Below the pieces are notes generated by a model. It searched no databases, was not told the DNA's origin, and worked only from the letters and a program-made list of their open reading frames with translations. A program made the position numbers and the translations under genes. This document shows positions 9,401-62,483 of a stretch of 64,000 bases of DNA, piece after piece. Origin of the DNA: Bolinopsis microptera (lineage: Eukaryota; Ctenophora; Tentaculata; Lobata; Bolinopsidae); NCBI RefSeq assembly GCF_026151205.1, contig NC_087072.1, positions 9,049,669-9,113,668 of the forward strand. The letters are read 5' to 3'. The first letter of the stretch is position 1, and each line of letters starts with the position of its first letter.

Positions 9401-12400
9401 TTATAATTGGGGTGCAATTTAGCTGTTTGTAAAGCGCAAATAAAGCGCTTATAAGCGCTTTTAAAATTGAGTCAGGAAAACGCTATATTACATCTTATAA
9501 CCGCTTATAATCGATTATAAGCGTTTTTTAAGAAATCGCTTATTACGGCTAATTCATCGCTATTACCGCTTTTCCTATCATCCATGGCCAGGTGAGCAGG
9601 AATTAAAAAGCGCTTATAAGCGCTTTTTCGATGCTGCCCCTAGCCTGGTCGGAACGGGGTAGTGCCCGGAATTTAAAAGCGCTTATAAGCGATTTCTCAA
9701 TTCCCCTTAACCTGGTTGGAACTTTCATGTGCTTTTCTGAGCAACCTGGGGTGCACCGGCAGAGTCAGGATTTAAAAACGCTTATAGGCGCTTATGATCG
9801 CTTTTCTACCACTTTTCCTATCACCCATGGCATGGGTTGGCAAGAATTATAAAGCGCTTATAAGCGTTTTTCAATGCTGCCCCTTAGCTGGTCGGAACGG
9901 GGGAGTGCCCGGAATTTAAAAGCGCTTATAAGCGCTTTTTCAATGCCGCCCCTAACCTGGTCGGAACGGGGTGGTGCCCGGAATTTAAAAGCGCTTATAA
10001 GCGATTTCTCAATTCCCCTTAACCTGGTCGGAACTGGAGAGTGCCCACTTGCATGTGCTTTTCTGAGCAACCTGGGGTGCACCGGCAGAGTCAGGATTTA
10101 AAAGCGCTTATGATCGCTTTTCTACCGCTTTTCCTATCACCCATGGCCTGGTTGACAAGAATTAGAAAGCGCTTATAAGCGCTTTTAAATCCTGACTCTG
10201 CCGGTGCACCCCACTCCCCAGGTTGCACAGAAAAGCACTTATAAGCGGGCACTCTGATTTCTAGTTCCGACCAGGTTAAGGGGAATTGAGAAATCGCTTA
10301 TAAGCGCTTATTAATTCCAGGCACTCCCCCGTTCCGACCAGGTTAGGGGCAGCATTGAAAAAACGCTTATAAGCGCTTTATAATTCTTGCCAACCAGGCC
10401 ATGGGTGATGGGAAAAGCGGTAGAAAAGCGATCATAAGCGCTTTTTAATCCTGACTCTGCCGGTGCACCCCAGGTTGCTCAGAAAAGCACATGAAAGTTC
10501 CAATATAGGGGGGGGGTGACATGTCTCCAATGTCTCCCGCACCTTATCTTTTCGAAAAAGACAAAGACATTGGAGACATTGGAGACACAGCTTTTGGAGA
10601 CATTGGAGACATTGGGGACATTAGGGACATTAGAGACACAGCTTTTGGAGACATTGGAGACATTGGAGACATTGGGGACATTGGAGACACAGCTTTTGGA
10701 GACATTGGAGACATTGGGGACATTGGGGACATTAGGGACATTAGAGACACAGCTTTTGGAGACATTGGAGACATTGGGGACATTGGGGACATTGGAGACA
10801 TTGGGGACATTAGGGACATAAAATGGATATTAGGAGCATTGGAGACATTGGAGACACAGCTTTTGGAGACTCCTCCTCCTCCTCCTCCTCCTCCTCCTCA
10901 GTCCTCCTCAGTCGTTCTCCTCCTCCTCCTGAGTCCTCCTCCTGGGACCTGGGTCCTCCTCCTGACCTCCTGGGTCCTCCTTCTCCTGGGTCCTCCTCCT
11001 CCTCTTCATCCTCCTCCTCTTCCTCCTCAATCATCAGTCCTCCTTAATCCTCCTCCTCATCCTTCTCGTCTGTCCTCCTCCTCCTCAGTCCTCCCCAAGT
11101 CCCCCTCCTCCTCAGTCCTCCCCCAGTCCCCCTCCTCCTATTCAATCCTCCTCCTCCTCCTCCTCAGTTCTCCTCAGTCCTACTCCTTCTCAGTCCTCCT
11201 CCTGAGTCCTCCTCCTGAGTCCTCCTCCTGAATCCTCCTCCTCTTCCTGAGTCCTCCTCCTCCTAGGTCCTCCTCCTTCTCCTCCTCCTCCTCCTCAGTC
11301 CTTCTCCTCCTCCTCCTCCTCCTCCTCCCTCTCAGTCATCCTCCTCAGTCATCCTCCTCAGCCATCCTCCTCAGCCATCCTCCTCAGCCATCCTCCTCAG
11401 CCATCCTCCTCAGCCATCCTCCTCAGCAATCTTCCTCAGCCATCATCCTCAGTACTCCTCAGTCCTCCTCCTCAGTCCTCATCCTCCTCCTCAGTCCTCC
11501 TCCTCATCCTTCTCCTTAGTCCTCCTCCTCCTCAGGCCTCCCCAGTCCCCTCCTCCTCCTATTCACTCCTCCTCCTCCTCCTCAGTTTTCCTGAGTCCTC
11601 CTCCTGAGTCCTCCTCCTCCTCCTGAGTCCTCCTCCTGGGTCCTCCTCCTCCTAGGTCCTCCTCCTTCTCCTCCTCAGTCCTTCTCCTCCTCCTCCTCAG
11701 TCCTCCTCCTCCTCCCTGTCAGTCATCCTCCTCAGCCATCCTCCTCAGTCCTCCTCAGTCCTCCTCCTCCTCCTCAGTCCTCATCCTCAGTCCTCCTCTT
11801 CAGTCCTCCTCCTCCTGGGTCCTCTTCATCCTCCTCCTCTTCCTCCTCAGTCCTCCTCCTCATCCTTCTCATCAGTCCTCCTCCTCCTCAGTCCTCCCCA
11901 GTCCCCCTCCTCCTCCTCCTCATATTCAGTCTTCCTCCTCCTCCTATTCAGTCCTCCTCCTTCTCATTCCTCCTAAGTCCTCCTCCCTGAGTCCTCCTCC
12001 TCTTCCTCCTGAGTCCTCCTCCTGGTTCATCCTCCACCTAGTTCCTCCACCTTCTCCTTCTCCTCCTCAGTCCTTCTCATCCTGCTCCTCCTCCTCAGTC
12101 ATCCTCTTCAGTACTCCTCAGTCCTCCTCCTTCTCAGTCTTCCTCAGTCCTCTTCCTGAGTTCTCCTCCTCCTCCTGAGTCCTCCTTCTGGGTCCTCCTC
12201 CTGATCCTCCTAGGTCCTCCTCCTTCTCCTCAGTCCTACTCCTCCTCCTTAGTCCTCTTCCTCCTCCTCCTCCCTCTCAGTCATCCTCCTCAGCCATTCT
12301 CCTCAGCTATCCTCCTCAGTCTTCCTCAGTCCTCATCCTCCTCCTCAGTCCTCCTCCTCCTCCTCAGTCCTCCTCCTCCTGAGTCTTCCTCCTCTTCATC

Positions 12401-15400
12401 CTCCTCAGTCCTCAGTCCTCCTCCTCATCCTTCTCGTCAGTCTTCTTCATCCTCAGTCCTCCCCAGTCCCCCTCCTCCTCCTCCTCCTATTCAGTCCTCC
12501 TCCTCCTCATTTCTCCTCAGTCCTCATCCTTTTCAGTCCTCATGAGTCCTCCTCCTCCTCTTCCTCCTGAGTCCTCCTCCTGGGTCCTCATCCTCCTAGG
12601 TCCTCCTCCTTCTCCTTCTCCTCAGTCCTTCTTCTCCTCCTCCTCCCTCTCAGTCATCCTCCTCAGTCATCCTATTCAGCCATCCTCCTCAGTACTCCTC
12701 AGTCCTCCTCCTTCTCTGTCCTCCTCAGTCCTCTTCCTGAGTCCTCCTCCTAGGTCTTCCTCCTCTTCATCCTCCTCAGTCCTCAGTCCTCCTCCTCAGT
12801 CCTCCTCCTTCTCAGTCCTCCTCCTGAGTCCTCCTCCTGAGTCCTCCTCCTGAATCCTCCTCCTCTTCCTGAGTCCTCCTCCTAGGTCCTCCTCCTTCTC
12901 CTCCTCCTCCTCCTCAGTCCTTCTCCTCCTCCCTCTCAGTCATCCTCCTCAGTCATCCTCCTCAGCCATCCTCCTCAGCCATCCTCCTCAGCCATCCTCC
13001 TCAGCCATCCTCCTCAGCAATCCTCCTCAGCCATCATCCTCAGTACTCCTCAGTCCTCCTCCTCAGTCCTCATCCTCCTCCTCAGTCCTCCTCCTCATCC
13101 TTCTCCTTAGTCCTCCTCCTCCTCAGTCCTCCCCAGTCCCCCTCCTCCTCCTATTCACTCCTCCTCCTCCTCCTCAGTTTTCCTGAGTCCTCCTCCTGGG
13201 TCCTCCTCCTCCTAGGTCCTCCTCCTTCTCCTCCTCAGTCCTTCTCCTCCTCCTCCTCAGTCCTCCTCCTCCTCCCTGTCAGTCATCCTCCTCAGCCATC
13301 CTCCTCAGTCCTCCTCAGTCCTCCTCCTCCTCCTCAGTCCTCATCCTCAGTCCTCCTCTTCAGTCCTCCTCCTCCTGGGTCCTCTTCATCCTCCTCCTCT
13401 TCCTCCTCAGTCCTCCTCCTCATCCTTCTCATCAGTCCTCCTCCTCCTCAGTCCTCCCCAGTCCCCCTCCTCCTCCTCCTCCTCATATTCAGTCTTCCTC
13501 CTCCTCCTATTCAGTCCTCCTCCTTCTCATTCCTCCTAAGTCCTCCTCCCTGAGTCCTCCTCCTCTTCCTCCTGAGTCCTCCTCCTAGTTCCTCCACCTT
13601 CTCCTTCTCCTCCTCAGTGATTCTCATCCTGCTCCTCCTCCTCAGTCATCCTCTTCAGTACTCCTCAGTCCTCCTCCTTCTCAGTCTTCCTCAGTCTTCT
13701 TCCTGAGTTCTCCTCCTCCTCCTGAGTCCTCCTTCTGGGTCCTCCTCCTGATCCTCCTAGGTCCTCCTCCTTCTCCTCCTCAGTCCTACTCCTCCTCCTC
13801 AGTCCTCTTCCTCCTCCTCCTCCCTCTCAGTCATCCTCCTCAGCCATTCTCCTCAGCTATCCTCCTCAGTCCTCCTCAGTCCTCATCCTCCTCCTCAGTC
13901 CTCCTCCTCCTGAGTCTTCCTCCTCTTCATCCTCCTCAGTCCTCAGTCCTCCTCCTCATCCTTCTCGTCAGTCTTCTTCATCCTCAGTCCTCCCCAGTCC
14001 CCCTCCTCCTCCTCCTCCTATTCAGTCCTCCTCCTCCTCATTTCTCCTCAGTCCTCATCCTTTTCAGTCCTCATGAGTCCTCCTCCTCCTCTTCCTCCTG
14101 AGTCCTCCTCCTGGGTCCTCATCCTCCTAGGTCCTCCTCCTTCTCCTTCTCCTCAGTCCTTCTTCTCCTCCTCCTCCCTCTCAGTCATCCTCCTCAGTCA
14201 TCCTATTCAGCCATCCTCCTCAGTACTCCTCAGTCCTCCTCCTTCTCTGTCCTCCTCAGTCCTCTTCCTGAGTCCTCCTCCTAGGTCTTCCTCCTCTTCA
14301 TCCTCCTCAGTCCTCAGTCTTCCTCCTCAGTCCTCCTCCTCATCCTTCTCATCAGTCCTCCTCCTCCTCAGTCCTCCCCAGTCCCCCTCCTCCTCCTCAT
14401 ATTCAGTCTTCCTCCTCCTCCTATTCAGTCCTCCTCCTTCTCATTCCTCCTAAGTCCTCCTCCCTGAGTCCTCCTCCTCTTCCTCCTGAGTCCTCCTCCT
14501 GGGTCCTCATCCTCCTAGGTCTTCCTCCTTCTCCTTCTCCTCAGTCCTTCTTCTCCTCCTCCTCCCTATCAGTCATCCTCCTCAGCCATCCTCCTCAGTA
14601 CTCCTCAGTTTTCCTCCTTCTCTGTCCTCCTCAGTCCTCTTCCTGAGTCCTCCTCCTCCTCCTGAGTCCTCCTCCTGGGTCCTCCTCCTCTTGGGTCCTC
14701 CTCCTCCTAGGTCCTCCTCCTCAGTCATCCTCCTCAGCCATCCTCCACAGCCATCCTCCACGGCCATCCTCCTCAGCCATCCTCCTCAGCCATCCTCCTC
14801 AGTACTCCTCAGTCCTCCTCCTTCTCGGTCCTCTTCCTGAGTCCTCATCCAGCATCCTCCTCCTTCTCCTCCTAAGTCCTCCTCCTGGGTCATCCTCCTC
14901 CTAGATCCTCCTCCTTCTCCAATCATACATCTACGTCTCCAGTGTCTCCAATGTCTCCAATGTCTCCAAAAGCTTTGTCTCCAATGTCTCCAATGTCCCC
15001 AATGTCTCCAATGTCTCCAATGTCTCCAAAAGCTGTGTCTTCAATGTCTCCAATGTCTCCAATGTCTCCAGGACATGTCTCTGCACCCTATTTTTTCAAA
15101 AAAGACAAAAGACATTGGAGACATTGGAGACATTGGAGACATGTCACCCCCCTCCCCCCCCCCCCCCCCCCCCCTTATAAGCGGGCACTCTGATTTCCAG
15201 TTCCGACCAGGTTAGGGGCAGCATTTAAAAAGCGCTTATGAGCGCTTTTTTATTCCGGGCACTCCCCCGTTCCGACCAGGTAAGGGGCAGCATTGTAAAA
15301 CGCTTATAAGCGCTTTATAATTCTTGCCAACCCATGCCATGGGTGATAGGAAAAGTGGTAGAAAAGCGATCATAAGCGCCTATAAGCGCTTTTAAATCCT

Positions 15401-18400
15401 GACTCTGCCGGTGCACCCCAGGTTGCTCAGAAAAGCACATGAAAGTTCCAACCAGGTTAAGGGGAATTGAGAAATCGCTTATAAGCGCTTTTAAATTCCG
15501 GGCACTACCCCGTTCCGACCAGGCTAGGGGCAGCATCGAAAAAGCGCTTATAAGCGCTTTTTAATTCCTGCTCACCTGGCCATGGATGATAGGAAAAGCG
15601 GTAAAAGCGGTGAAATAGCGATGAATTAGCCGTAATAAGCGATTTCTTAAAAAACGCTTATAATCGATTATAAGCGGTTATAAGATGTAATATAGCTTTT
15701 TCCTGACTCAATTTTAAAAGCGCTTATAAGCGCTTTATTTGCGCTTTACAAACAGCTAAATTGCACCCCAATTATAAGCGCTTATAATCGCTTATAAATG
15801 GTTCAAAAAAGCGCCTACGAATCGCTTATCCGGCCAACCGCTTATCCACCCGTTTTTGGCGCCAATCCTACTGGAAAACCGCTTTCAAATCGCTCAGCGA
15901 CGCTAGTAAGCGCTTAAAAGCGCTTATAAGCGCTTTTAAATTCAAAAAAGCGCTTTTTTGAATTATGACATCAATTATAGTCGATTATAAGCGATTTTTT
16001 TTGAACCGTTTATATAATCGTAAAAAAAGCGATTGTAAACGGTTTTTTTTTTAAAAGCGCCGAAAAAGCGCTCAATAAGCGATTATCGGCGCCGATCATA
16101 AAATATCGTTTATGGAAACTTGCCTAATTTTGTTTGATTAAGTGTTTCATATTTTATAATTACGATTTAAGGTACAGTTAAATTGTGTATAATTGCTTAT
16201 TATATATTATAGTCATAACATTTTCTGAAATAATTCATTAAATCCCCGGCTGTGCCCTCGGCAGATGTATGGTTATTGGCCGGGGCCGGGGTAAATATTT
16301 TGGCCGGGGCCTGCCCCCGGTTAATTGCTAAATTTTGGCCGGGGCCGGGAAGAGCCGGGGTTGTGATTTTTGCCGGGGCCGGGGACCAGGTCAAACACTG
16401 ATAACGTTGCATTACACAATTGTTGAGTTTAACATAATATTATAACAAATAACTTATAAGGTTAATGTCTTACATTGAGTTTCCTTACAATTCAACTTGA
16501 ATTGTCGGGAAACTTGAATTGAATTCAAGATGTATAATTCTAGAATTATCCTCATAGAAGTTTTTACAATTAGCTGGGCAAGATGACTGGGACTAGTTGA
16601 GCTGGCGAAGCCGCGAAGGGCATAATTCAATATTGTAACTTTTGAACATTAGATTCCAATACATTATGTGTACTAGCAGGAACCCGTATAATATAACCCT
16701 AAACGGTGTCAAGACTCAATATACTAAAATAATTATTACCTATTTAATTGGCGTTTTTGACACCACTTGGGGGTCCAAATTTTAGGCTCTAAAATCATTA
16801 TTCCTTGGCCAATTTTTTATTTTTTCATGCTGATTTGAAGGCCATTAAAGCATTTGACCCAGCCAAAAAAGTTCCAGTTGTATATCTTTTACGGTTTTTG
16901 CGGAAAGTCGCGTTAAAGTTGATGCCGTGGTGTCAGTAAAATGGCACAGATATATATATATATCGTCTCGCTTTATATATAGTAAGATAAGCTAATATAA
17001 TAGCTAAGATGCCTGCAATATTATCTAACTACAAGTACAACTCTAATACATTTCATCGTGAATTGAGCGACTCTATTTCGATCTGTTGAGGGATTACGAT
17101 CCAAGATTAACCTTCTTTTGTTTTTATCAATTATCGATAGTATTAAAACTTGCTGCATTATCAACTTACCATCTGACAATCTGTTTTCCTGATTTAAAAG
17201 TAATACTTTCTCTCCGGTGTTTTTCATTTTACATTTGAAAAACTTTTGACCCTAACCATAGTTATGGGCATGTCGATATTATCTCATTGTACACAGCAGT
17301 ACAAAGTACACAAATCTGATCGAACAAATATCGGCCGATGGTGCGATAAAGTGCGGTATTAAGTAAATAGTGCAATTCTGCAAACCGCACCCACCGCACT
17401 TATATGTTGCCTCTGAACCCAATCATATGTAATTAAATTGTGCTCATTTCACTAGCAAAGCTTACAGATATAAGACCCGCGTTACAAACAATAAGAGTCC
17501 TAATGTAAGACACCAAATAGCCACCGATTATACCTGTGCATCAGAGCTGAAGAGGGTAGAAGAGGAGGTAGGATGAGGAACTTCAGGGCCACTACCAGAG
17601 TTAATGAGGAGGACTCTGTCACCATCAGAGGGTCTACAGCAGCACGTGCAAAACACTGAAGACACACTGTACACACAAATGTAGAGAAGACTCGCTACTT
17701 GCGCGACGTACAGGTAGAACTGTACTTCGTTCAATGTGTCTTGTCTGAGGGAGGTAACTTATTTGTTATCAGTCAGATAAAATTAATATATTCACGTCAA
17801 AACAATTGTACTTCTTGACTATAATAAGCTCTATGAATGGATGAAGCTTTAAAGAAGTACCAAAAAAGCAGGTTGACTTGAAGATAATTGAAAAAGGTTG
17901 GTCCAAATAGCAAACCTTTGAAAGAACCAGTGCGGACTATTCCAAGCAGAGAAAGAGCCCGCATACCTAGCAAGGTTACCAAACCAGAACAGGGACGGTA
18001 CTATGGGCAACATCTTCTTACTGGTCAGATAGAGGGATGTGGTAATTATCCAGGCTATCAGGTCTATACTGATCTGAGAGGGAGAGGGGTAATCATTTCA
18101 TTGTTAATTCAATGATTTGTTATTAAGTTGTGTTTTAAGAATACTATAATATCATGAAGATGATTTGAGTATGGACTATGAGGAGGTAGTCAAGTGACTT
18201 CTATTATCTAGTAAAACATTGTCCATATTATTAGTGTGTGATTAAAAAGTTCAAAGCATTGGAAATTATGAAATTATGAACACAAGATTATGATGTTTGG
18301 GATGTTTGTTATGCTTTATATAGTTAGTGAACCAGCTAACTACGTTTCCTTCGCTTTGTAATTATTGTTTAAATTATTTAGTTATATTTTATTCGATATC

Positions 18401-21400
18401 TTTGTCGCAAAGAAGCGGGGTAGTAAGTACTGTGTTTCGTTTCGTTTCGTTTCGTAATTGTTATTATTAATTGAGGGAAAGGCTTGCATTAAGCTTGTGT
18501 TACTGGAGCGTGTCACAGTTGTCAGAAGTGTGAAAGGAGCAAGCATGCCGTAACCACGGTAACGAGATTTTTACATCTAGCCATTAGCAGCCGGTAGCAC
18601 GATATTTTGCTGACTTAGCTAATTGTACTCCTAAGACTTCAGAATCATACGTCACCGGTCACCTGAAGACCGCGCAAAGCATAATTTTGTCTCACCCCTA
18701 TACCATGACAGATTGGCCATGGTAACGTGTAACTCTAGGTAGTATGTACTAGATATAATATAAATAGAAGGTAACAGGACCGACTATATATAGAGCCTGG
18801 AATCTAATCAGTTGTGATTTAATTATTGGTAGATATTGGTCTGATGACCACGTACCCCGATCATTTCCCCTTCTGTTCATGTTGTATTCTGCAGGCAAGA
18901 AGATTGACATGGTCAGACGTTTAGTGCAGTGGTCGTGTCATTTTTTAGGATGTTCCTTATGTAGATCGAGAAACTAACGCGAACGCCTTAAAATCAATGA
19001 ACAAATACATTTTTATGGTATTATTATATATAAGAGTAAAATATGTACGCTAATGACGATTACAGTAACTCGGCGACTGAAAGGATGCCCATAATTTTCA
19101 TCAGCACAAGATTGTATTGAAATATTATAAATCTATTATATCTAAGTGTCGTAAATCAATTTTTAATTGTCGTACGACAAAATTTATATCAGTCTGATTT
19201 TAGTTGGAATGTGACTACCGAACTTAGAAGTAGCAGCACAAATAATTCACTATTTGTCCTTCGATATTAGTTCCTATCTTAGAACAAGTATGTTCATCAG
19301 TTCATGGTTTCTTCCTTTGTGTGTTCTATTGATAAAATCAAACATTTGCTACGTCCGCCGCAGATTTTTATTCTTCCGCAGAACTTGTTTTTCTTGTGCT
19401 AATACTTTCTCGTCTCGCTTAATAAACACTAAAGCGTTTATTATTCTGAGCAGTGAGCTGTAGGCTCGAACACTTCCTCTTCTCGAAATTCGTCATGCTT
19501 ATCTAGTATCTACCCTCTCCTCGCTTGGATGTTTTCTACAATTACAAGGGCGGGGATAACTTGTTTTATTGATGTTTTCGAGCAGAAACAGTTTTTCTTC
19601 ACACCTGTACCGGATAACGGTTTGATAAGGACTTCATACGTTTTCTGCCTGATGTACGTGGGGTAAACACTTATGTGACTTTAATGTTTTTCTGAACCTC
19701 ATGACTAGTTTTGTTTATAAGGCTCTACAGTCTACAGTTTTCTTAATCAAGATATCACTGTACTATGGGGTTCTAATATTAAGACGCAATGAAACTACCT
19801 AACTATAAGGTTTTCTATTATAGTCTACTATCTAGGTTTCTCTTGTTACTCTTATTACTGTGCAAGCTGCACCTGAAAGGTGGTACTACTGATTTTGCTG
19901 GTGATATTTTGCAGTGATTACTGTGCAAGCTGCACCTGAAAGGTGGTATTATTGATTTTGCTGGTGATGTTTTGCAGTGATTACTGTGCAAGCTGCACCT
20001 GAAAGGTGGTATTATTGATTTTGCCGGTGATGTTTTGCAGTGATTACTGTGCAAGCTGCACCTGAAAGGTGGTATTATTGATTTTGCTGGTGATGTTGTG
20101 CAAGCTGCACCTGAAAGGTGGTATTATTGATTTTGCTGGTGATATTTTGCAGTGATTACTGTGCAAGCTGCACCTGAAAGGTGGTATTATTGATTTTGCT
20201 GGTGATGTTTTGCAGTGCTTTATATTAATATGATATGCACATTTTTTCTTCGCCGACACGTCAAAGCATAACTTGTAGTTGTACTGATCATTAAAATATT
20301 CGCAAGCGCCGAATCCATCTTACAGAGAAGCCATTGTAGTCCATGTTACAGTTGACAGTTCAGAGTTTCAGTTGTTGTAACTTCATATTGCATCTGTATC
20401 TTGATTGTAGATTTGCATTGGGTTTTGATGGCCACTCATATTTTTCATAATCGCACCAGATTTGTGTCCAGTTTTTTCTCCTCCATGCTAAGTGTAAGTT
20501 TTGAAACTTGTGACCGGACAGGGAGTGCAACTATAAACTAATCGCACCGTTTTGAGAGCACCTGACAACATAGTCGGATCAACTATAAACTAATCGCATT
20601 GATTTTCTAAAACGAACTGTAATATCGTGTTCCATAATTTCAATACATAAGGGGTCGTTCACATAATATCACGTAATCAATATTTAAGCAATTAATACCC
20701 CCCTCTGTAATCAACCGTAATTAAGACCCCACCCCCGCCCCCCCCCCCCCCCCCCCCTCCTGACAGCAATATTACGTAATCATGGCCTCCCCCCCCCCCC
20801 CCCCTTGACTTTTTTCCCTAGAAAACACTTATCTCTACGTTTCATGCTACCCTGATCATGCTATCATGATGAGCCGAAACCATTGTTATGATATCCAGCC
20901 AAGCACCTTCTAAACTACTGACTATTATAGCCGGATATTCGATCAATTTCTAAATTGTATCACTGCAGCTGAACTACAACGATACTTCCCAAAGAATATC
21001 TTCTCTCATAGTTCGTTATCCCCATGACAAGTCAGGATTATGAGTACAGTAACCAAACTGTTTATAGCATTAAAAGTGATGCAGTACGGTACACTTTGGC
21101 AGGATACTACCTGGTCGTCATCAGCTCATCTTTCATAGGAGACACAATCATTCTCATAGCATCTATAAAATACAAGGCTTTCAAACTGCACAATGTGATG
21201 ATTGTCATCATCCAGCACATTGCGGTCTGTGATTTGTTGGTTTCAGTTGCAGAGGTACTCCCGAAAGTTGTTTCTATTTCCGCTGGTGAATGGGTGTTAG
21301 GCAGATTCCTGTATCACCTCTTATATTATCTGAGACTTTATGTCATGATATCAAGCTTACTTCTTATCTGTACCATGACCACCAGCAAGGTGCTGCTCCT

Positions 21401-24400
21401 AGAATACCCCCTCCGACTCGGCGCAACATCATCCAACAAAGCACATGTGATCTGTGCGGCAAGTTGGCTAGCTGCTTTTGGGTTACCTCTGACTCATGCT
21501 ATCGTAGATCGACAGGATAGCTTCTTTTCATACAGAGATTATTCAATCGAATACGGTTACTCATCTGATATTTGGAAATGGCTGCGACCTTTAAGTGCAG
21601 TGATATTCGGAGTAGTACCAACGTGTCTGGTTGTAGTGAACACAATGTATTTGCTGATAAAAGCCAAGCGAGTGGCTCGCAGGGGCCAAGAAAGTCTGAA
21701 GTGGCAAGGGATCAACGCGACTATTCTTACAGCAACGGTTTACTGTCTTTCTGTCTTGCCAATGGTTACGTACTTTATTGGAGAATCCCAAATCAAAGTT
21801 GATGAAAAAAGCCAAAGTTTCTTCCACACCTCTTTTTACAGAATAGCTTCTTCATCATTTTCCCTGAATACCATCTGTAACTTTTACATCTATAGTTTGA
21901 CTGTGAATGGTTTCAGAAACTTTGTCCGATCGATAAAAACACTAGTGTCCAGTAGGCTTTCTGCCAATTTGGAGGGAACGTCAACTAAACACGGTGAGAG
22001 ATTTATTGACTTAATTTTATTTACCACACTGATAAATTTCAGTAAAATTTCTACTCAGTTGTCAATTACTTACTGTAACTGTTAATTCAGAGTGTTGTAA
22101 CAGTTCATTCTTCAGGTGGAGGAAAACCGAAAGCGAAAGCGAACACGGGAAATGCTAATGGTAAAATAATAGAAGGAACACCAGTATGATTGTAATTGGT
22201 AACATTTATTTTGGGAATGGATTTCGAAAACCTTTCGGAACTTGTAATTTTACAATCAGAAAATGAAAGAGACAGTTAAGTGACCCCGACCCTTTCTTCA
22301 GATATGAAAGTTGAGCCCATAATTTATAACTTTGTTAATATAAGAGTTTGTGTGTGTTTTATTATTTAGTTATTTATTTCCGGTGTTTTTACTAGGTTTA
22401 CCCCTTATTTCTTAATCAATGTATCTGTTGAAACTCTTATTGATCAGTGTTTTGTGAATGATTAATGTTGTGATGTGGTATACTTGGATCGTTTTGATAT
22501 TTAATATATAATTTTAATTTTATTCGTAACACAACTCATTCAGCAATTTAACTAAACCAAACAAATTCTTCTCAAGAGCATAAGAAATAATTAATGTCTT
22601 GATAAATGGTACACGAAAGTAATAGAATTTCAAATAATCACCAAACTCAAATTATAGCTGAAACGTTAGGTACTAACATGAATAATGAGGTAAGCGTATG
22701 AAGGACCCTGCATAACGATGTATGTTACCATCCGAGCAATCAGCACTCCTATCACAACCACGTGACACAGCAGTTTTAATCTGCTGCCCTGTTGAAATAA
22801 TATCGTTACTGTAGTTTTACCACGATTTTACCTCAGCGTTACCTCAGTGTTACCTTAGTGTTACCTCAGTGTTACCTTAGTGTTACCTCAGTGTTACCTC
22901 AGTGTTACCTCAGTGTTACCTTAGTGTTACCTCAGTGTTACCTTAGTGTTACCTCAGTGTTACCTCAGTGTTACCTCAGTGTTACCTTAGTGTTACCTCA
23001 GTGTTACATCGGTGTTACCTCAGTGTTACCTCAGTGTTACCTCAGTGTTACCTCAGTGTTACCTCAGTGTTACCTTAGTGTTACCTCAGTGTTACCTCGG
23101 TGTTACCTCAGTGTTACCTCAGTGTTACCTCAGTGTTACCTCAGTGTTACCTCAGTGTTACCTCAGTGTTACCTCAGTGTTACCTTAGTGTTACCTCAGT
23201 GTTACCTTAGTGTTACCTCAGTGTTACCTCAGTGTTACCTCAGTGTTACCTTAGTGTTACCTCAGTGTTACCTCGGTGTTACCTCAGTGTTACCTCAGTG
23301 TTACCTCAGTGTTACCTCAGTGTTACCTCAGTGTTACCTTAGTGTTACCTCAGTGTTACCTCGGTGTTACCTAAGTGTTACCTCGGTGTTACCTCAGTGT
23401 TACCTCAGTGTTACCTCAGTGTTACCTTAGTGTTACCTCAGTGTTACCTTAGTGTTACCTCAGTGTTACCTCGGTGTTACCTCAGTGTTACCTCAGTGTT
23501 ACCTCAGTGTTACCTCAGTGTTACCTCAGTGTTACCTCAGTGTTACCTCAGTATTACCTCAGTGTTCCCTTAGTGTTCCCTTAGTGTTACCTCAGTGTTA
23601 CCTCAGTGTTACCTCAGTATTACCTCAGTGTTACCTTAGTGTTACCTCAGCTCAGTGTTACCTCAGTGTTACCTCAGTGTTACCTTAGTGTTACCTCAGT
23701 GTTACCTCAGTGTTACCTTAGTGTTACCTCAGTGTTACATCAGTGTTACCTTAGTGTTACCTCAGTGTTACCTCAGTGTTACCTCAGTGTTACCTCAGTG
23801 TTACCTCAGTGTTACCTCAGTGTTACCTCAGTGTTACCTCAGTGTTACCTTAGTGTTACCTCAGTGTTACCTCAGTGTTACCTTAGTGTTACATCAGTGT
23901 TCCCTCAGTGTTACCTTAGTGTTACCTTACCCATGGTACAATCCAGCCACATAACAAGGAGTCGAGAGAAATTTTTGCAAGTATGACGTAATGACGGATC
24001 AAACATTCCAAATCAATCAGGGACCGTTCACATATTACGTAATCGCTTTTTGGTCAATTTTTAACCCCTCCTCTCTCCCCCATCCGTAATCAATTTTATA
24101 CATAGCTATTGTGTCAAAATTACACTAGCGTCATCATTTCGAACCCCCCCCCCCTCGGCTGATTACGTAATATGTGAACGACCCATAAAGAGACTAATCA
24201 GTTATTTAAACGAAGGTGAAAGTGAAACTACAAACCCACGTAGGGAGTTTGATCGGTTCTTTGGGGGCGATCAGTGAAACTAGGAGACCGAAGAACGCCA
24301 GGGTTCCCAGAAGAGTTGCACATAGCAACTCGTACATGCATGGGTTTATACCGTCATCAAACCATTGCGTTATCGAGATAGGACACACTGATTAGTTCAC

Positions 24401-25550: not shown

Positions 25551-27565
25551 GGGGGGGGGGGGTGTCATGTCCGTCTATGTCCGCCTATGTCCTGTCCTTT
25601 TTGGATTCTATGAGACAACGGACGTGTTTTTTGGGACATTGGCGGACACGGACGGACATTGGCGGACTCGGACGGACATTGGCGGACTCGGACGGACATT
25701 GGCGGACTCGGACGGACATTGGCGGACCCGGACGGACATTGGCGGACTTGGATGGACATTGGTGGACATTAGCGGACATTGGTGGACATTAGCGGACAAA
25801 CATTTTGAGGACTGAAGAGTACTGAAGAGTACTGAAGAGTACTGAGGAGGATGGCTGAGAAGGATGGCTGAGGAGGATGGCTGAGGAGGATGAATGAGGA
25901 GGATGACTGAGGAGGATGACTGAGAGGGAGGAGAAGGATCAGGAAGATCCAGGAGGAGGAGGACCCAGAAGGAGGACCTAGGAGGAGGAGGAGGAGAACT
26001 GAGGAGGATGACTGAGGAGGAGGAGGACTCAGGAGGAGGACTGAGGAGGACTGAGAAGGAGGAGGATGGCTGAGGAGGATGGCTGAGGAGGATGGCTGAG
26101 AGGGAGGAGGAGGAGGAAGAGGAGGAAGAGGACTGAGGAGGAGGAGGAGAAGGACTGAGGAGGAGAAGGAGGACCCAGGAGGAGGAGGACCCAGGAGGAG
26201 GACCCAGGAGGAGGAGGAGGACTGGGGAGGAGGAGAACTGTTGAGGACTGATGAGGAGGACTGAGGACGAGGAGGAGGAGTAGGAGGAGGACTGAGGAGG
26301 AGAGGAGGAAGAGGACTGGGGAGGATCAGGAAGACCCAGGAGGACCCAGGAGGAGGAGGAGGAGGACTCAGGAGGAGGAGGAGGACTGAGGAGGACTGAG
26401 GAGGAGGACTGACGATGACTGAGAAGGAGGAGGACTGAGGAGTACTGAGGAGGATGGCTGAGGAGGATGGCTGGGGAGGATGGCTGAGGAGGATGACTGA
26501 GGAGGATGACTGAGAGGGAGGAGGAGGAGGACTCAGGAGGAGGACTCAGAAGGAAGAGGAGGAGGACTCAGGAGGAGGACTCAGGAGGAGGACTTAGGAG
26601 AAATGAGAAGGAGGACTGAGGAGAACTGAGGAGGAGGAGGAGGAGGAGGACTGAATAGGAGGAGGAGAAGGAGGGGGACTGGGAGAGGACTGGGGAGGAG
26701 GAGGACTGATGAGAAGGATGAGGAGGAGGACCCAGGAGGAGGAGGACTGAGGACCGAGGAGGAAGAGGAGGAGGATGAAGATGAGGAGGAGGATTGAGGA
26801 GGAGGAGGATTGAGGAGGAGGACTGATGAGGATGGCTGAGGAGGATGACTGAGAGGGAAGAGGAGGAGGAGGAGGACTCAGGAGGAGGAGGAGGACTGAG
26901 GAGGACTGAGAAGGAGGAGGAGGAGGAGGACTGAATAGGAGGAGGAGGAGGGGGACTGGGGGAGGACTGAGGAGGAGGATGGAGGACTGAGGAGAAGGAT
27001 GAGGAGGAGGACTGAGGAGGACTGAGGACTGAGGAGGAAGAGGAGGATCATGAAGAGGAGGAGGAGGACCCAGGAGGAGGACTCAGGAGGAGGAGGAGGA
27101 CTGGGGAGGAGAAGGACTGTTGAGGAGGAGGAGGAGGAGTAGGAGGAGGACTGAGGAGGGGAGGAGTAAGAGAACTGAGGAAGATCAGGAAGACCCAGGG
27201 GGAGGAGGAGGAAGAGTAGGAGGAGGAAGCATCTAAATGTTATTTCCATTTTTGTCCGTTTCTGTCCATTTTTGTCCGCTTTGACCTTTGTCCGCTCTAT
27301 TTTTTGTCCGTTTTGAAAATATAGGGTACCGAACGGACAAAAAACATGATCCCCCTATAACAGCAAAAATTGAACATTTTATTTAGCAATTTAGGTGTCC
27401 ATTTATGTCCGCCTATGTCCGCCTATGTCCGTCTATGTCCGCCTATGTCCGCCTATGTCCGCCTATGTCCGTCTATGTCCGTCTATGTCCGCCTATGTCC
27501 TGTCTTTTTTGGGTTCTATGAGACAAGCGGACATAGACGGACGTGACACCCCCCCCCCCCCCCCC
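25551..27565. mobile_element. Element E2: poly(G)/poly(C)-capped foldback element with 6-bp TSD
   Basis: Twelve G (25551-25562) precede TGTCATGTCCGTCTATGTCC. The right end is the inverse, GGACATAGACGGACGTGACA, followed by 17 C to 27565. Flanks are ATTACC at 25545-25550 and again at 27566-27571. The left arm (to 25800) has a hairpin turn, CCTTTTTGGATTCTATGAGA, then tandem GGACATTGGCGGACTCGGAC. The core (25803-27230) is AGG/GAG purine satellite. The right arm (27231-27548) has GTCCGTTT and ATGTCCGCCT repeats and the same hairpin turn. Its ends are almost identical to those of E3. No protein is encoded. Confidence 0.88.
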
Positions 27566-27900
27566 ATTACCAAGAGAGGGTGAAGCGAACACATTTAAAC
27601 TTAATTAACATATCGAAACAGAATGTTGTGCCCTATTTGAACTTCCTATAAAGCACCGTTCACCCGACAATAACCTTATTACATGAAATTTTAACCTCTC
27701 TTTAGTCCGACAGTAAATTTTTGCTCACTTTATTTGTTGTCAGGGCGGACGGTAAGTAATTGGTATGGAGGCAAATCCGCTCCCTCACTCAGACTGAGGA
27801 GCTAAGTGTCTCGTGATCGGACCTCGTCTCTATTTCAGATCAATCTGTCGCTGTAATAAAAAGCAGCATGCGACCAATTCAACCACAAATTGAACCACTT

Positions 27901-37234: not shown

Positions 37235-37548
37235 GGGGGGGGGGGGGAACCAACGGGCATTAATGGGCATTAATGGGCATTAATGGGCATTAATGGCAAT
37301 GGCAGTCTGAGCAAAATTTTAAAATACTGCCATTAATATGCCCATACTTTTTTATTCGCTTTTGAAACTTTCAGGTCACTTTAGGGTACTGTGAAACTAG
37401 ACTCACATACTAAACTGATGATTTGGCACGTATCTACCGAAATTTAGAGACCATAGACATTTTTCTATTAAATATGGGCATTAATGTGCATTAATGTCAA
37501 TGGCAGTCTGAGCACAATTTTAAAATACTGCCATCAATGCCCGTTGGT

Positions 37549-37580
<32 letters not shown>
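37235..37580. mobile_element. Element E4: small poly(G)/poly(C)-capped foldback element
   Basis: Thirteen G (37235-37247), AACCAACGGGCATTAATG, then a 10-bp tandem repeat GGGCATTAAT, and a hairpin arm CAATGGCAGT .. ATACTGCCATTAA around the turn AAAATTTTAAAA. The right end mirrors this (hairpin, then AATGCCCGTTGGTT) with 31 C to 37580. The flanks share CGTAAA (37229-37234 and 37583-37588) with a 2-base offset on the right. E4 sits 35 bp upstream of the start codon of epoxide hydrolase B. Its hairpin arm is homologous to that of E6. Confidence 0.85.
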
Positions 37581-41454: not shown

Positions 41455-41540
41455 TTAAGCCTAAAGAAAAATCATAAACAGTTACTGTTCTACACAATTT
41501 GTACCTTCTTCTTCAAACGAAAGGCTGTTCAAACAATATA

Positions 41541-44500
41541 GGGGGGGGGGTGTCATGTCCGTCTATGTCCGCCTATGTCCTGTCCTTTTTGGATTCTATG
41601 AGACAACGGACGTGTTTTTTGGGACATTGGCGGACACGGACGGACATTGGCGGACTCGGACGGACATTGGCGGACTCGGACGGACATTTACGGACCCGGA
41701 CGGACATTGGCGGACTCGGACGGACATTGGTGGACATTAGCGGACATTGGTGGACATTAGCGGACAAACATTTTGAGAATTTTTCCCAGAAGGAGGACCT
41801 AGGTGGAGGAGGAGGAGAACTGAGGAGGATGACTGAGGAGGATGGCTGAGGAGGATGGCTGAGGAGGATGACTGAGAGGGAGGAGGAGGAGGACTCAGGA
41901 AGAAGAGGAGGACTTAGGAGAAATGAGAAGGAGGACTGAGGAGAACTGAGGAGGAGGAGCAAGAGGAGGACTGAATAGGAGGAAGAGAAGGAGGGGGACT
42001 GGGAGAAGACTGAGCAGGAGGAGGACTGATGAGAAGGATGAGGAGGAGGACTGAGGACCGAGGAGGAAGAGAAGGAGGATGAAGGGGAGGAGGAGGACCC
42101 AGGAGGAGGAGCTGAGGACTGAGGAGGAGGACTGAGGAGAATGGCTGAGGAGGATGACCGAGAGGGAAGAGGACTGAGGAGGAGGAGGAGGAGGAGGAGG
42201 AATCAGGAGGAGAAGGAGGAGGACTAAGGAGGACTGAGAAGGAGGAGGACTGAAGAGGAGGAGGACCGAGGAGGAGGAGGAGGACTGAATATGAGGAGGA
42301 TGGGGGGGACTGGGGGAGGACTGAGGAGGAAGATGAAGGACTGAGGAGAAGGATGAGGAGGAGGACTGAGGAGGACTGAGGAGGACTGAGGACTGAGGAG
42401 GAAGAGGAGGAGGATGAAGAGGAGGAGGACCCAGGAGGAGGACCCAGAACGAGGACTCAGGAGGAGGAGGACCCAGGAGGAAGAGGACTGTTGAGGACTG
42501 ATGAGGAGGACTGAGGACGAGGACAAGGAGTAGGAGGAGGACTGAGGAGGGGAGGAGGAAGAGGACTGAGGAAGATCAGGAAGACCCAGGAGGAGGAGGA
42601 GGAAGAGTAGGAGGAGGAAGCATCTAAATGTTATTTCCATTTTTGTCCGTTTTTGTCCATTTTTGTCCGTTTTTGTCCGCTCTATTTTTTGTCCGTTTTA
42701 AAAATATAGGGTACCGAACGGTGGAGGACTGAGGAGTACTGAGGAGGATGGCTGAGGAGGATGGCTGAGGAGGATGACTGAGAGGGAGGAGGAGGAGGAC
42801 TCAGGAGGAAGAGGAGGAGGAGGACTCAGGAGGAGGACTTAGGAGAAATGAGAAGGAGGACTGAGGAGAACTGAGGAGGAGGAGGAGGAGGAGGACTGAA
42901 TAGGAGGAGGAGAAGGAGGGGGACTGGGAGAGGACTGAGCAGGAGGAGGACTGATGAGAAGGATGAGGAGGAGGACTGAGGAGGAGGACTGAGTACCGAG
43001 GAGGAAGAGGAGGAGGATGAAGAGGAGGAGGAGGACCCAGGAGGAGGAGGACTGAGGAGGAGGACTGAGGAGGACTGAGGAGGATGACTGAGGAGGATGA
43101 CCGAGAGGGAAGAGGAGGAGGAGGAGGACTCAGGAGGAGAAGGAGGAGGACTAAGGAGGACTGAGAAGGAGGAGGACTGAGGAGGAGGAGGAGGAGGAGG
43201 AGGAGGACTGAATAGGAGGAGGATGAGGGGGACTGGGGGAGGACTGAGGAGGAGGATGAAGGACTGAGGAGAAGGATGAGGAGGAGGACTGAGGAGGACT
43301 GAGGAGGACTGAGGACTGAGGAGGAAGAGGAGGAGGATGAAGAGGCGGACGAGGACCCAGGACGAGGACCCAGGACGAGGACTCAGGAAGAGGAGGACTG
43401 GGGAGGACGAGGACTGTTGAGGACTGATGAGGAGGACTGAGGACGAGGACAAGGAGTAGGAGGAGGACTGAGGAGTAAGAGGAGGACTGAGGAGGGGAGG
43501 AGGAAGAGGACTGAGGAAGATCAGGAAGACCCAGGAGGAGGAGGAGGAAGAGTAGGAGGAGGAAGCATCTAAATGTTATTTCCATTTTTGTCCGTTTTTG
43601 TCCATTTTTGTCCGCTCTATTTTTTGTCCGTTTTGAAAATATAGGGTTACCGAACGGTGGAGGAGGACTGAGGAGGGGAGGAGGAAGAGGACTGGGGAGG
43701 ATCGGGAAGACCCAGGAGGAGGACCCGGGAGGAGGAGGACCCAGGAGGAGGAGGAGGACTGAGGAGGACTGACGAGGAGGACTGACAATGACTGAGAAGG
43801 AGGAGGACTGAGGAGGATGGCTGAGGAGGATGGCTGAGGAGGATGACTGAGAGGGAGGAGGAGGAGGACTCAGGAGGAGGACTCAGGAGTAAGAGGAGGA
43901 GGAGGACTCAGGAGGAGGACTTAGGAGAAATGAGAAGGAGGACTGAGGAGAACTGAGGACGAGGAGGAGGAGGACTGAATAGGGGGAGGAGAAGGAGGGG
44001 GACTGGGAGAGGACTGAGGAGGAGGAGGACTGATGAGAATGATGAGGAGGACTGAGGAGGAGTACTGACCGAGGAGGAAGAGGAGGAAGAGGAAGAGGAG
44101 GAGGATGAAGAGGAGGAGGAGGACCGAGGAGGACTGAGGAGGATGGCTGAGGAGGATGACTGAGAGGGAAGAGGAGGAGGAGGAGGAGGAGGAGGAGGAG
44201 GAGTCATGAGGAGGAGGAGGAGGACTGAGGAGGACTGTGAAGGAGGAGGACTGAGGAGGAGGAGGAGGAGGAGGAGGAGGAGGAGGAGGAGGAGGAGGAG
44301 GAGGAGGAGGAGGAGGAGGAGGAGGAGGAGGAGGACTGAATAGGAGGAGGAGGGGGACTGGGGGAGGACTGAGGAGGAGGATGGAGGACTGAGGAGAAGG
44401 ATGAGGAGGAGGACTGAGGAGGACTGAGGAGGACTGAGGAGGAAGAGGAGGAGGATGAAGAGGAGGAGGAGGACCCAGGAGGAGGACTCAGGAGGAGGAT

Positions 44501-44952
44501 GAGGACTGGGGAGGAGGAGGACTGTTGAGGACTGATGAGGAGGACTGAGGACGAGGAGGAGGAGTAGTAGGAGGACTGAGGAGGGGAGGAGGAAGAGGAC
44601 TGAGGAAGATCAGGAAGACACAGGAGGAGGAGGAGGAAGAGTAGGAGGAGGAAGCATCTAAATGTTAATTCCATTTTTGTCCGTTTTTGTCCGCTCTATT
44701 TTTTGTCCGTTTTGAAAATATAGGGTACCGAACGGAAAAAAAACATGATCCCCTATAACAGCGAAAATTGAACATTTTATTTAGCAATTTAGGTGTCCAT
44801 TAATGTCCGCTAATGTCCGCTTATGTCCGTCTATGTCCGTCTATGTCCGCCTATGTCCGCCTATGTCCGCCGCGCCTATGTCCTGTCCTTTTTGGATTCC
44901 ATGAGACAAGCGGACATAGACGGACGTGACACCCCCCCCCCCCCCCCCCCCA
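41541..44952. mobile_element. Element E3: poly(G)/poly(C)-capped foldback element with 6-bp TSD
   Basis: Ten G (41541-41550) precede TGTCATGTCCGTCTATGTCC. The right end is GGACATAGACGGACGTGACA with 21 C to 44952. The flanks are AATATA at 41535-41540 and 44953-44958. The left arm repeats GGACATTGGCGGACTCGGAC to about 41766. The core is AGG/GAG purine satellite. A spacer beginning CATCTAAATGTTATTTCCAT and ending TATAGGGTACCGAACGG occurs near 42621-42721 and 43566-43658, and a variant at 44655-44735, so the interior is a head-to-tail array of about 1 kb units. E2 has one such unit. E3 lies just upstream of epoxide hydrolase C. Confidence 0.88.
41780..44650. repeat. AGG/GAG polypurine satellite of E3, three ~1 kb higher-order units
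   Basis: Almost purely purine on this strand with periodic ACTGAGGAGG, GATGGCTGAGGA and GACCCAGGAGG. Boundaries of the larger units are marked by the GTCCGTTT spacer. A pure GGA run of about 80 bp lies near 44250-44335. Ser/Pro/Leu-rich minus-strand ORFs are satellite translations. Confidence 0.9.
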
Positions 44953-44958
44953 ATATAT

Positions 44959-57966: not shown

Positions 57967-58138
57967 TGATCAATGATGGAGACATTCGTAAACTATTGAC
58001 AAATAGATTTACGAGAGTGCTATGGCCAGTACCAAATACACAAATCACTAATCATGATTCCTAGCTTTGAATTTACCCGGGAACCCCGGGCTTTGTGTTC
58101 TCAAACAGTCGTTATATTAATATGAGACTTAAGTTAAT

Positions 58139-58140
<2 letters not shown>

Positions 58141-58176
<36 letters not shown>

Positions 58177-58864
58177 AACCATATTAAAGTATATTAAAAT
58201 GTAGGATTTTTCCCGATTTTGACCCGGGGATATACTTTAATATACTTTAATATACCTACAATATACTTTAATATCCCTATCTCCTTGGAGGCCTACTTCA
58301 AAAATTGTTGCCCAAAATAAGCTTGAAATGCAATTCTTAATCTATTCCAAAAAGTTCTTGAAAAAATATTGAAAACTGATGGAGTTATTTCAATTTTAAT
58401 GAAGTCATTTTGGCTAGTATTCCGAACCGAGATATTATGTGCAATTTTCCCAATTTTGTTCATGGAGGTCTTTTTACTTAGTATCCACTATATTCAACAA
58501 ACACTGAGTTATATCTTTCACATAGAGTTAGTCTCATTAAAAAATATTGAAATTTTATCGAATTTGGTCAAAAGCGAATTTGGGCAAAAGTGTATGCCCA
58601 AATAGGGCATACTTTTTAAAGCTCATAGCTCAGCCAATTTTTGACCAATCTGGATGGAAATTCATGTACTAGTCCTAAAACAGGCTTATCTTGCGAATCT
58701 GAGTGAAAAATATAGTTCATCATGTAAATCTTAACGAAGAATATAAATCTTCTAATTGTAAGGTATATTTAAGTATATTAAAATGTAGGATTTTTTTCCG
58801 ATTTTGACCCGGGATATACTTTAATATACTTTAATATGGTTGCCCCCCCCCCCCCCCCCCCCCC
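58141..58864. mobile_element. Element E5: poly(G)/poly(C)-capped foldback element
   Basis: Thirty-four G (58141-58174) precede CCAACCATATTAAAGTATAT. The right end reads ATACTTTAATATGGTTG followed by 22 C to 58864. Each arm contains a tandem TATATTAAAG-type unit, a turn (GGATTTTTCCCGATTTTGAC) and the inverted units. AATTT flanks both sides (58136-58140, 58865-58869). The unique middle (58260-58740) has no credible protein. Confidence 0.82.
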
Positions 58865-58869
58865 AATTT

Positions 58870-60546: not shown

Positions 60547-61310
60547 TGAGGGAAAGAAATGTTCACAAATCTGATTTATTTTTCAATAAATAATGAACAT
60601 GCAATATACATGAAGGTTTTAACAAACAGGGTTCAAGCCAGGCAGCATGGTTGAATAGTGAATAGTAATACCTGATAGTGAGAGAAACAACTGCACCAAG
60701 ACTGAAGACGAATGAACTCCGTAAATTTCTGGCCGAAAATAAATCGTCTTTGCAAATTGTAGATCCCCTCCTAAAAATATAATCTATATTTAAGAGATGT
60801 AAAAAATTACCCCATACGTTTGGTCTTATGGCATAACCATTCTTTATTAGTTTATATAATATGTTTAGCGTAAAAACATCGATTAGATCAGGTACTAAGT
60901 TCTGTACGTGGCATCGACTAAGTGTAATTTTGGAATTTAGTCAAAAACCCACCCACCGACCCTTCTGTGGTATTAAATGTTGAGAAATCACGGTACTAAC
61001 TGTGTCTTAGTATATAAACAGCTTTAAACAGCTCATTAAACAGTGGGAAAATTATACCCACTAGGGGTTTTGTTTTCAATGTAGTCGAATTAGATGAAAT
61101 AAAAAGTTACAAAAACAGGAATAAACTCAAAATCCCAAAAATACTCAAAATTGAAATTAGAGGTGAAATGGGTTTTTTGGGCTTAGTACCATATGCCTGT
61201 TTTTCTGGGAAATGTGCCATGTAATAACTGTGTTTTGGAAGAAAATATGACCCACCCCAACGTCACCTACGGTACTAAGTGTAAGATTCCCCCCCCCCCC
61301 CCCCCCCCCC
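60547..61310. other. Non-genic sequence ending in a C run
   Basis: Contains several short GGTACTAAGT/GTACTAACTG repeats (60894, 60990, 61271) and ends in a C run (about 61291-61310). The C run resembles the right end of an E-type element, but I find no matching G run or inverted left end. Confidence 0.4.
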
Positions 61311-61588
61311 GATTACAATCTAGCGATTGGTATGGACATGTAGTTAGAATGCCAGACTCTAGACTACCGAGGTTTCTGTTGAACTGGAAGCCAAATTATG
61401 GAAAGAGGTCAAGGGGCAGACCCCGTAAGAACTGGAAGTCCTGCGTACTCGAAGATGCTGCTAAGTTTACAGGTGTTGAAAACATCGACAACAACACAAC
61501 AGAAGCTTTGGCTACCAACCGAGTACAGTGGAGACATATGTTACGCCGCCAACGCGATGTGTGTGATGCAGGCCACTCCAACGACTAG
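61311..61588 (+). pseudogene. LINE reverse-transcriptase C-terminal fragment
   Basis: About 90 codons (WYGHVVRMPDSRLPRFLLNW, GKRSRGRPRKNWKSCVLED, RVQWRHMLRR) match the C-terminal tail of many LINE ORF2 proteins, where GHV.RMP and GRP.KTW motifs follow the RT. The frame ends with a stop at 61586-61588. Nothing of the RT precedes it. The sequence starts right after a C run, so this is a 5'-truncated dead insertion, unlike the intact LINE at 48 kb. The apparent start at 61193 is only an open frame through the C run. Confidence 0.75.
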
Positions 61589-61606: not shown

Positions 61607-62483
61607 AACATGTAGGGGGGGATGCAACGTCAATTAATGTCAATTAATGTCAATTAATGTCAATTAATGTCAATTAATGTCAATTAATGTCAATTAATGT
61701 CAATGTCAGTTTTGCAAAATTTTGGAATACTGACATTAATTGACACGATATTTTTCGACCAGAGATTATGTAGTTCTACCATATTTTTAGCACTTTAGAA
61801 CGTTTATATCATCAATTTATTCACTACTATCACATATGGAAATGTGAAATGTGAAAAAAATTCAGATCATTAAACAATAAAACTAAAATAATACGGTTTT
61901 CCGAAATTTAATTTTCTTAAATGGGCGTGGCCATCCAAGGGCGTGGTTCTCAACATCATCAGAACTTAAAACCCACATTAAACGAAATGCCTTCATGACA
62001 TTTATATTTGAATAACGAATCTTAAACAGCTAGCATTACTACTTCATACTAAAAAAGCCGATTCTAGATATTTTACCTGTAAAAGAAACCAATAAAATAT
62101 GGGCGTGGCCGGTGGGGACCGAAGATGGAAGAGTTTGAAGCTGAAATTTTTTTTTGTGGTCTTTGAACCTAAGGATCAACAGATAAGAACATACTCATAA
62201 TTATTCAAGGACATTTTGTTTTTTGAACCGGTCTAACTTACATAGACGTGAATATCTTGAATATTTATCGAATAATGATAATCTCAAATTTCAAGACAAA
62301 TTAATGTCAATTAATGTCAATTAATGTCAATTAATGTCAATTAATGTCAATTAATGTCAATTAATGTCAATTAATGTCAATTAATGTCAATTAATGTCAA
62401 TTAATGTCAATTAATGTCAATGTCAGTTTGGGGTTTTTATGGAATACTGACATTAATTGACGTTGCATCCCCCCCAACATGTA
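61607..62483. mobile_element. Element E6: poly(G)/poly(C)-capped foldback element with 8-bp TSD
   Basis: The element is 61615-62475, flanked by AACATGTA at 61607-61614 and 62476-62483. Seven G precede ATGCAACG, then a 10-bp tandem unit TCAATTAATG (about 7 copies left, about 12 right). Hairpin arms CAATGTCAGT .. ATACTGACATTAATTG surround a turn with AAAATTTT (left) or GGGGTTTTT (right). The right terminus reads TTAATTGACGTTGCATCC and seven C. The hairpin arms are homologous to those of E4. The middle codes nothing credible. Confidence 0.9.

Follow-up and report, generated by a model that had tools for sequence, protein, structure and literature searches.

Probable non-coding DNA transposons with G-run tips and same-way hairpin arms in the ctenophore Bolinopsis microptera

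Six G-run elements and the layout of their arms

The 64,000-nucleotide stretch of the Bolinopsis microptera genome considered here (the window; positions 9,049,669-9,113,668 of contig C1) contains six elements, E1 to E6, each of which opens with a run of Gs, closes with a run of Cs, and carries inverted inner tips, tandem-repeat arms, and T/A-rich turns (Table 1). In what follows, we describe the layout of these elements, their relatives across the 264.65-Mb assembly (232 contigs), and the sites at which they lie, and then consider what kind of transposon they may be.

Runs of 7 or more Gs or Cs number 18 in the window, against 4.6 expected and a maximum of 11 across 200 first-order simulations. 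Twenty-one G-run/C-run pairs lie no more than 12 kb apart, and the six elements alone pass a test for inverted repeats just inside the runs, a test passed by 0.9% of random position pairs; E1 is counted twice among the passing pairs because its C run is split. When the 120 nt inside each end were folded as single strands, the 12 ends gave z values of −1.5 to −8.4 and 8 control stretches gave −1.75 to +1.25, with 11 of the 12 ends falling below every control (the exception is the right end of E3). As in foldback elements, the long terminal repeats are built of short tandem units, which measure 9-20 bp in E1, E2, E3, E4, and E6, while the arms of E5 consist of shorter repeats. A purine-rich satellite middle is common to E1, E2, and E4.

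Table 1. Elements and cassette turns in the window, with run lengths and flanking duplications (TSD, target-site duplication)
Feature	Window positions	Strand	Description
E1	10508..15174	+	G9 ... C6 T C21, satellite middle; flanks AATATA/TTATAA, no clear TSD
E1 left-cassette turn	10539..10563	+	borders approximate; direct identity to right turn 32/35
E1 right-cassette turn	15083..15107	+	same orientation as left turn
E2	25551..27565	+	G12 ... C17, satellite middle; TSD ATTACC at 25545-25550 / 27566-27571
E2 left-cassette turn	25593..25617	+	23/25 identical to right turn, direct
E2 right-cassette turn	27501..27525	+	same orientation as left turn
E3	37235..37580	+	G13 ... C31; degenerate 8-bp TSD ACCGTAAA (37227-37234) / GTCGTAAA (37581-37588)
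E3 left-cassette turn	37303..37330	+	27/28 identical to right turn, direct
E3 right-cassette turn	37504..37531	+	same orientation as left turn
E4	41541..44951	+	G10 ... C20, family of E2; TSD AATATA at 41535-41540 / 44952-44957
E4 left-cassette turn	41581..41605	+	24/25 identical to right turn, direct
E4 right-cassette turn	44884..44908	+	same orientation as left turn
E5	58141..58864	+	G34 ... C22; AATTT in both flanks (58136-58140, 58865-58869)
E5 left-cassette turn	58200..58230	+	borders approximate; found by relaxed pattern
E5 right-cassette turn	58784..58815	+	same orientation as left turn
E6	61615..62475	+	G7 ... C7; TSD AACATGTA at 61607-61614 / 62476-62483
E6 left-cassette turn	61707..61734	+	21/28 identical to right turn, direct; weakest among families
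E6 right-cassette turn	62424..62451	+	same orientation as left turn

Each arm is a hairpin cassette in which the units lead into a T/A-rich turn and return as inverted units. In 36 of 37 copies the left turn runs in the same direction as the right one, no copy has the two opposed, and all six families tested (E1, E2/E4, E3, E5, E6, and E6b, a sister family of E6) agree; 34 of the 37 were called by the first patterns, and the window copy of E5 and copy L123 were added by a relaxed one. Aligned directly, the two turns match at between 21 of 28 positions (E6) and 27 of 28 (E3), and a 111-bp stretch of both arms of L074 is a direct repeat at 98%. The outer tips are inverted and the turns are not, which differs from a foldback element whose arms mirror each other throughout. 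The 37th copy, L044, is a single cassette of 144 bp (tip, array, right-type turn, tip) with its own TSD, CGCCGATT, a structure that would be expected from recombination between two same-way arrays.

An earlier note on this DNA had proposed the six as copies of one plan with mirror-image arms, and its G and C runs, inverted inner tips, tandem arms, and T/A turns all hold, while the mirror symmetry does not. Among the flanking duplications it listed, ATTACC at E2, AACATGTA at E6, and the AATTT shared by the flanks of E5 are as it described them. Its AATATA belongs to the element at 41541, whose C run ends at 44951 and not at 44952, and the CGTAAA that it gave as offset at that element belongs to 37235-37580, where it is not offset: read by eye in the 8-bp register of its family, the pair is ACCGTAAA/GTCGTAAA, with 6 of 8 positions matching and two transitions. 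The motif CAAC...ATTAA that it found common to three elements is indeed present in E3 (37235), E5 (58141), and E6 (61615), but it does not mark a single family, because TSD classes cut across it, with 8-bp duplications in the relatives of E3 and E6 and mostly 6 bp in those of E5.

Copies, target sites, and tip lengths across the genome

Exact matches to family-specific tips total 1,389 in the assembly, and reversed-pattern controls gave 0 for every family. The E2/E4 family contributes 313 tips with CATG and 400 with CACG, E5 contributes 444, E1 129, E6 78 (with 7 or more Gs), E6b 15, and E3 10. At least 74 E2/E4 pairs, 1.2 to 6.5 kb in size, were found among the 200 matches listed, a pairing that left out 28 left-end places on contigs C3-C4, as the right ends listed reach no further than C3, and 24 ends stayed single. 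One CATG end is joined with one CACG end in 68 of these 74 and two CACG ends occur in 6, so the two ends of this family differ by a fixed base. Short pairs are rare among those drawn by hand, with 1 in 29 for E6 (134 bp) and 1 in 36 for E5 (97 bp; the E5 pairs come from the 100 tips listed among 444). A 200-kb sample of a second contig (C2:2000001-2200000) had 0 canonical pairs, and the six rows that passed by score there fall within a local tandem repeat. Positions 140800-144110 of this sample (L009-L028) hold a tandem array of ~74-bp units with a G run of 8-21 in each, so G runs also spread as satellite.

TSDs were scored with absorbed bases allowed, since a target G or C merges with the run. 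In E6, 21 of 22 copies have a perfect 8-bp TSD and one has a mismatch; when these are pooled with L075, L076, the E6b copy L074, the E3 copies L050-L052, and the element nested in L029, perfect duplications number 27 of 29, with one mismatch each in L039 and L076 (the window E3, at 6/8, stands outside this pool). Swapped flanks yielded 0 perfect matches in 28 rows, against 25 of 28 for the real flanks, a count in which L052 was misread because its run is interrupted. The E2/E4 set (20 of the shorter pairs among the 74, together with E2, E4, and L053) has a perfect 6-bp TSD in 19 of 23 copies, where swapped flanks would give 0.3, and the six E1 copies examined besides the one in the window all fit 6 bp. 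When no more than one base on either side is allowed as absorbed, E1 and E2/E4 together reach 25 of 29, the window E1, which has no TSD, being left out. Nested insertions give further examples: AATATG, plus one absorbed G, flanks an E2/E4 copy within a long interspersed element (LINE), and within that same E2/E4 copy lies a G10 element flanked by TATTCA, or by CTATTCAG if one C and one G were absorbed.

The two lengths go with different target preferences. In the 6-bp class, the central T3/A4 (TA) is present in 43 of 50 half-sites (p = 1e-13), and in the 8-bp class, T at position 2 or A at position 7, an nTnnnnAn-like target, is present in 31 of 54 (p = 4e-5) and G1/C8 in 18 of 54 (p = 0.01); the motifs were picked after the counts had been viewed, so the weaker of these p values are optimistic. 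The fixed TSD lengths and the two preferences show at least two target classes, 8 bp for E3, E6, and E6b and 6 bp for E1, E2, and E4. Among eight copies of E5, four have 6-bp TSDs (L114, L116, L118, and L122, the last read by eye), while L120 has 8 bp, L123 7-8 bp (by eye), the window copy 5 bp, and L112 none. The contrast between L120 and L123, with their 8-bp-like duplications, and the four 6-bp copies may reflect cross-mobilization of E5 by two transposases.

Uninterrupted paralogous sites exist for two elements. E6 lies just past the end of an open reading frame (ORF; 61193-61588, LINE-like by eye and without a Pfam match) that is repeated in the genome, and when its flanks were joined into one query with the junction at base 82, the best 40 of 556 candidates all crossed the junction, ending at base 88-104, mostly inside a TGTA-repeat tail. 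E5 sits in another repeat, and 32 of the 41 places listed cross its junction at 78-99% identity; the remaining nine comprise eight matches to the window itself and a single one to half of an E4 flank. The three closest E5 places are one base longer than the joined query, which would fit a visible TSD one base shorter than what was removed, perhaps AATTT or a TAATTT whose first T became C. Flank queries for E2, E3, and E4 returned from the genome the window itself alone, plus one half match for E4. Paralogs of the repeats flanking E1 lack the element, and they were not counted as empty sites because gaps at the junction make the site imprecise.

The run that an element brings in appears to be short. 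Among E6 tips with at least six Gs, 13 have exactly six, 50 exactly seven, and 28 eight or more (the tip pattern itself demanded seven, and the six-G and exactly-seven tips were then counted separately). In the 22 E6 copies whose two ends both have at least seven, the TSD supplies no G or C to 35 ends, of which 30 are exactly seven and five are 8-11, whereas the nine ends with a supplied G or C include two of length 8 and seven that have reached 10-33 (7/9 against 5/35, Fisher p = 5.8e-4). E2/E4 tips, collected with a pattern floor of six, have a minimum of 7 and a mode of 8, with 29 of the 46 ends reaching at least 9. The transposon would then bring about 7-8 Gs, and the longer runs look like later slippage; growth mainly at ends that gain a G or C from the TSD favors slippage after insertion and not a quadruplex signal. 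Recognition of the tips as G-quadruplexes, which the earlier note had raised as a possibility, is unlikely given this usual length and the predominance of seven-G tips in E6. A single tract of seven Gs cannot by itself make an intramolecular quadruplex.

The kind of transposon and its possible transposases

Many copies, shared tips, and TSDs of fixed length are the marks of a non-autonomous DNA transposon, and we put at roughly 0.86 the probability that these elements are non-coding DNA transposons, dependent in all likelihood on two or more transposases acting in trans, in which two same-way hairpin cassettes flank an unrelated middle between tips of about 7-8 Gs (Cs at the other end). Movement would be by cut and paste, and the arrayed units may serve as repeated transposase-binding sites, by analogy with the subterminal repeats of hAT elements. 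The twin form could have arisen when two hairpin miniature inverted-repeat transposable elements, or one that was duplicated, came to move as a unit, and solo cassettes would be left when the two same-way arrays recombine. Slippage after insertion would account for the long G runs, acting mostly on runs that already exceed seven.

Several points weigh against this picture. In the long copies that were opened, no transposase gene was linked to the tips, and their ORFs, judged by eye, belong to nested elements or are unassigned. In the 6-bp class, 4 of 29 copies have an imperfect TSD or none, 7 or 8 bp is an alternative fit for some copies of E2/E4 and of E1 when absorbed bases are allowed, and the E5 lengths are mixed. 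The test of the nTnnnnAn preference came after the pattern had been noticed, members of a single family do not count independently toward turn orientation, and the E6 crossings extend only 6-22 bases beyond the junction, mostly within the TGTA-repeat tail.

The view that the G and C runs are instead chance or slippage-born homopolymers near inverted repeats, or assembly artifacts, has in its favor their occurrence outside the six pairs, both in the window and in the 200-kb sample that has no canonical element. We consider this highly improbable, since the inner tips recur genome-wide, TSD lengths are fixed, uninterrupted sites exist, and the TSD controls contradict it. The proposal in the earlier note that G runs are transposon ends is therefore upheld, while its single family gives way to at least two target classes. 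That all families are of Mutator/Foldback type, with TSD length free to vary, also seems unlikely to us: Mutator is where most foldback elements are classified (PMC4079207) and relatives of MuDR/IS256 are described as making TSDs of 4-10 bp (PMC10045372), but here the length is fixed within each class, the classes differ in target preference, no MULE gene was linked to the tips in the long copies, and the Mutator/Foldback element Tm1, by its description, makes mostly 9-bp TSDs, where the lengths here are 6 or 8 bp.

For the 8-bp class (E3, E6, E6b), two known superfamilies come closer. If it were a non-autonomous hAT group, with the hAT transposase binding the arrayed units as subterminal repeats, then its TSD length and T2/A7 preference would match the 8-bp nTnnnnAn target described for Hermes, which also binds repeated subterminal sites (PMC10368747). 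The Hermes account differs in its 17-bp tips without G runs, its full coding element, and repeats not described as a hairpin cassette (PMC10368747). A hAT assignment is a possibility that we do not favor: the target preference is moderate at 31/54, no hAT gene was linked to the tips in the long copies, and the tips begin with Gs, whereas those of hAT elements usually begin with CAG or TAG. In the Merlin superfamily, 5′-GG tips are conserved, TSDs are 8-9 bp, and members are reported from three ctenophore genomes (PMC8101967); the 8-bp class alone combines such tips with such TSDs, which is insufficient for membership. GG is the sole constant stated for Merlin tips of 24-462 bp, same-way cassettes are not mentioned in that account (PMC8101967), and no Merlin gene was linked to the tips in the long copies, so that Merlin too is a possible parent that we do not favor. 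The 6-bp class has its nearest likeness in IS3EU/GingerRoot and Polinton, which share the 6-bp TSDs of E1 and E2/E4, yet IS3EU and GingerRoot are described with TA..TA tips (occasionally TG..CA in GingerRoot) where these elements have G and C runs (PMC10045372), and by their descriptions none of the compared systems has a tip-plus-TSD combination that the 6-bp class fits.

Repeat-armed foldback elements are already known. In Tm1 of Meloidogyne, as here, variable tandem units (13-15 bp in Tm1) fill most of the terminal repeat, the outer tip motifs are short, and most copies are non-coding, whereas its TSDs are 9 bp, its tips (CGGTTAA/CCTACCC) lack G runs, its arms are described as terminal inverted repeats, and it has a known transposase-encoding member (PMC3169594). 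The foldback element Tetris of Drosophila virilis is likewise non-autonomous, with repeat-bearing arms, a variable middle, and a role as a source of satellite arrays, and its authors did not find a transposase; its repeats are ~220 bp, its TSDs 8-10 bp, and G-run tips are not reported in its description (PMC4079207). Galileo, of the P superfamily, has long, internally repetitive terminal repeats that are described as inverted. Those of Drosophila FB are also long, internally repetitive, and described as inverted, and we know of no G-run tips in either. The literature that we searched, which did not take in Repbase and most subscription papers, yielded no G-run termini and no same-way hairpin arms, so the combination was not found in print; the view that the family is undescribed survives for its termini and not for its tandem-repeat arms, which Tm1, Tetris, and Galileo share.

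A bolder extension of the transposon reading would make the G7-8-tipped elements a lineage unlike any cataloged superfamily, each arm a stand-alone mini-transposon, with the 6-bp branch (nnTAnn, G8..C8) moved by a transposase of an undescribed superfamily and with seven Gs stable and eight prone to slip, so that insertion beside a G would seed a fast-mutating homopolymer. We regard this version as doubtful. Under the transposon reading itself, the same-way cassettes provide an anatomical rule for telling these elements apart from foldback elements with mirror arms and offer a route to solo copies like that of long terminal repeats, and the seven- and eight-G tips amount to a natural experiment on when homopolymer slippage starts. 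Two target-site classes with one odd terminus in a single genome point to transposases still to be found.

Long copies and neighboring repeats

The long copies mostly enclose other elements or satellite. Within L029 (8.1 kb) lie a nested piggyBac-type transposon, bordered at each end by TTAA, and a further G-run element. L075 contains a nested G-run element, L122 a LINE piece, and L100/L101 (12.7 kb) a LINE together with an E2/E4 copy and a G10 element. The middles of L050-L052 are satellite, and L053 and L124 (6 kb from inside a 13.6-kb pair on C10) contain satellite and nothing else. The purine-rich satellite middle of E1/E2/E4 expands within the transposon to many kb in L053 and L124 (C10:11638500-11644500), where recurring translations suggest that it repeats in large blocks. 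No Pfam match was obtained for two ORFs in L076, two in L074, one more in L122, and two in L123. L076 carries at 773-1555 a nested GGC..GCC element (GGCAGTATCGAG...CGATACTGCC) with an ORF that we take to resemble a Merlin/ISXO2-type N-terminus; a link to Merlin through this copy was dropped, as this ORF has no Pfam match and belongs to a nested element whose tips are different. In the LINE nested in an E1 copy (L100:845-2584), the first ORF encodes an AlkB-type 2OG-Fe(II) oxygenase domain (E = 3e-18) and matches GDSL lipase weakly.

Long inverted repeats flank E1 in the window (9045-10498 / 15197-16134; 423 nt at 97% and 389 nt at 99%) and are made of units around TTATAAGCGC, so E1 may sit within another, larger foldback-like element. 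Further C runs of 11-24 at 20650-20860, 24050-24200, and 62800-62970 adjoin GGTCGTTCACATAATA / GATTACGTAATATGTGAACGACC stretches, an unrelated repeat with internal C runs. The window also contains an ORF for a rhodopsin-type receptor and a LINE whose protein has a match in Mnemiopsis leidyi, and an 11-bp unit, TTACCTCAGTG, that is repeated about 100 times at 22828-23927 with 92% matches.

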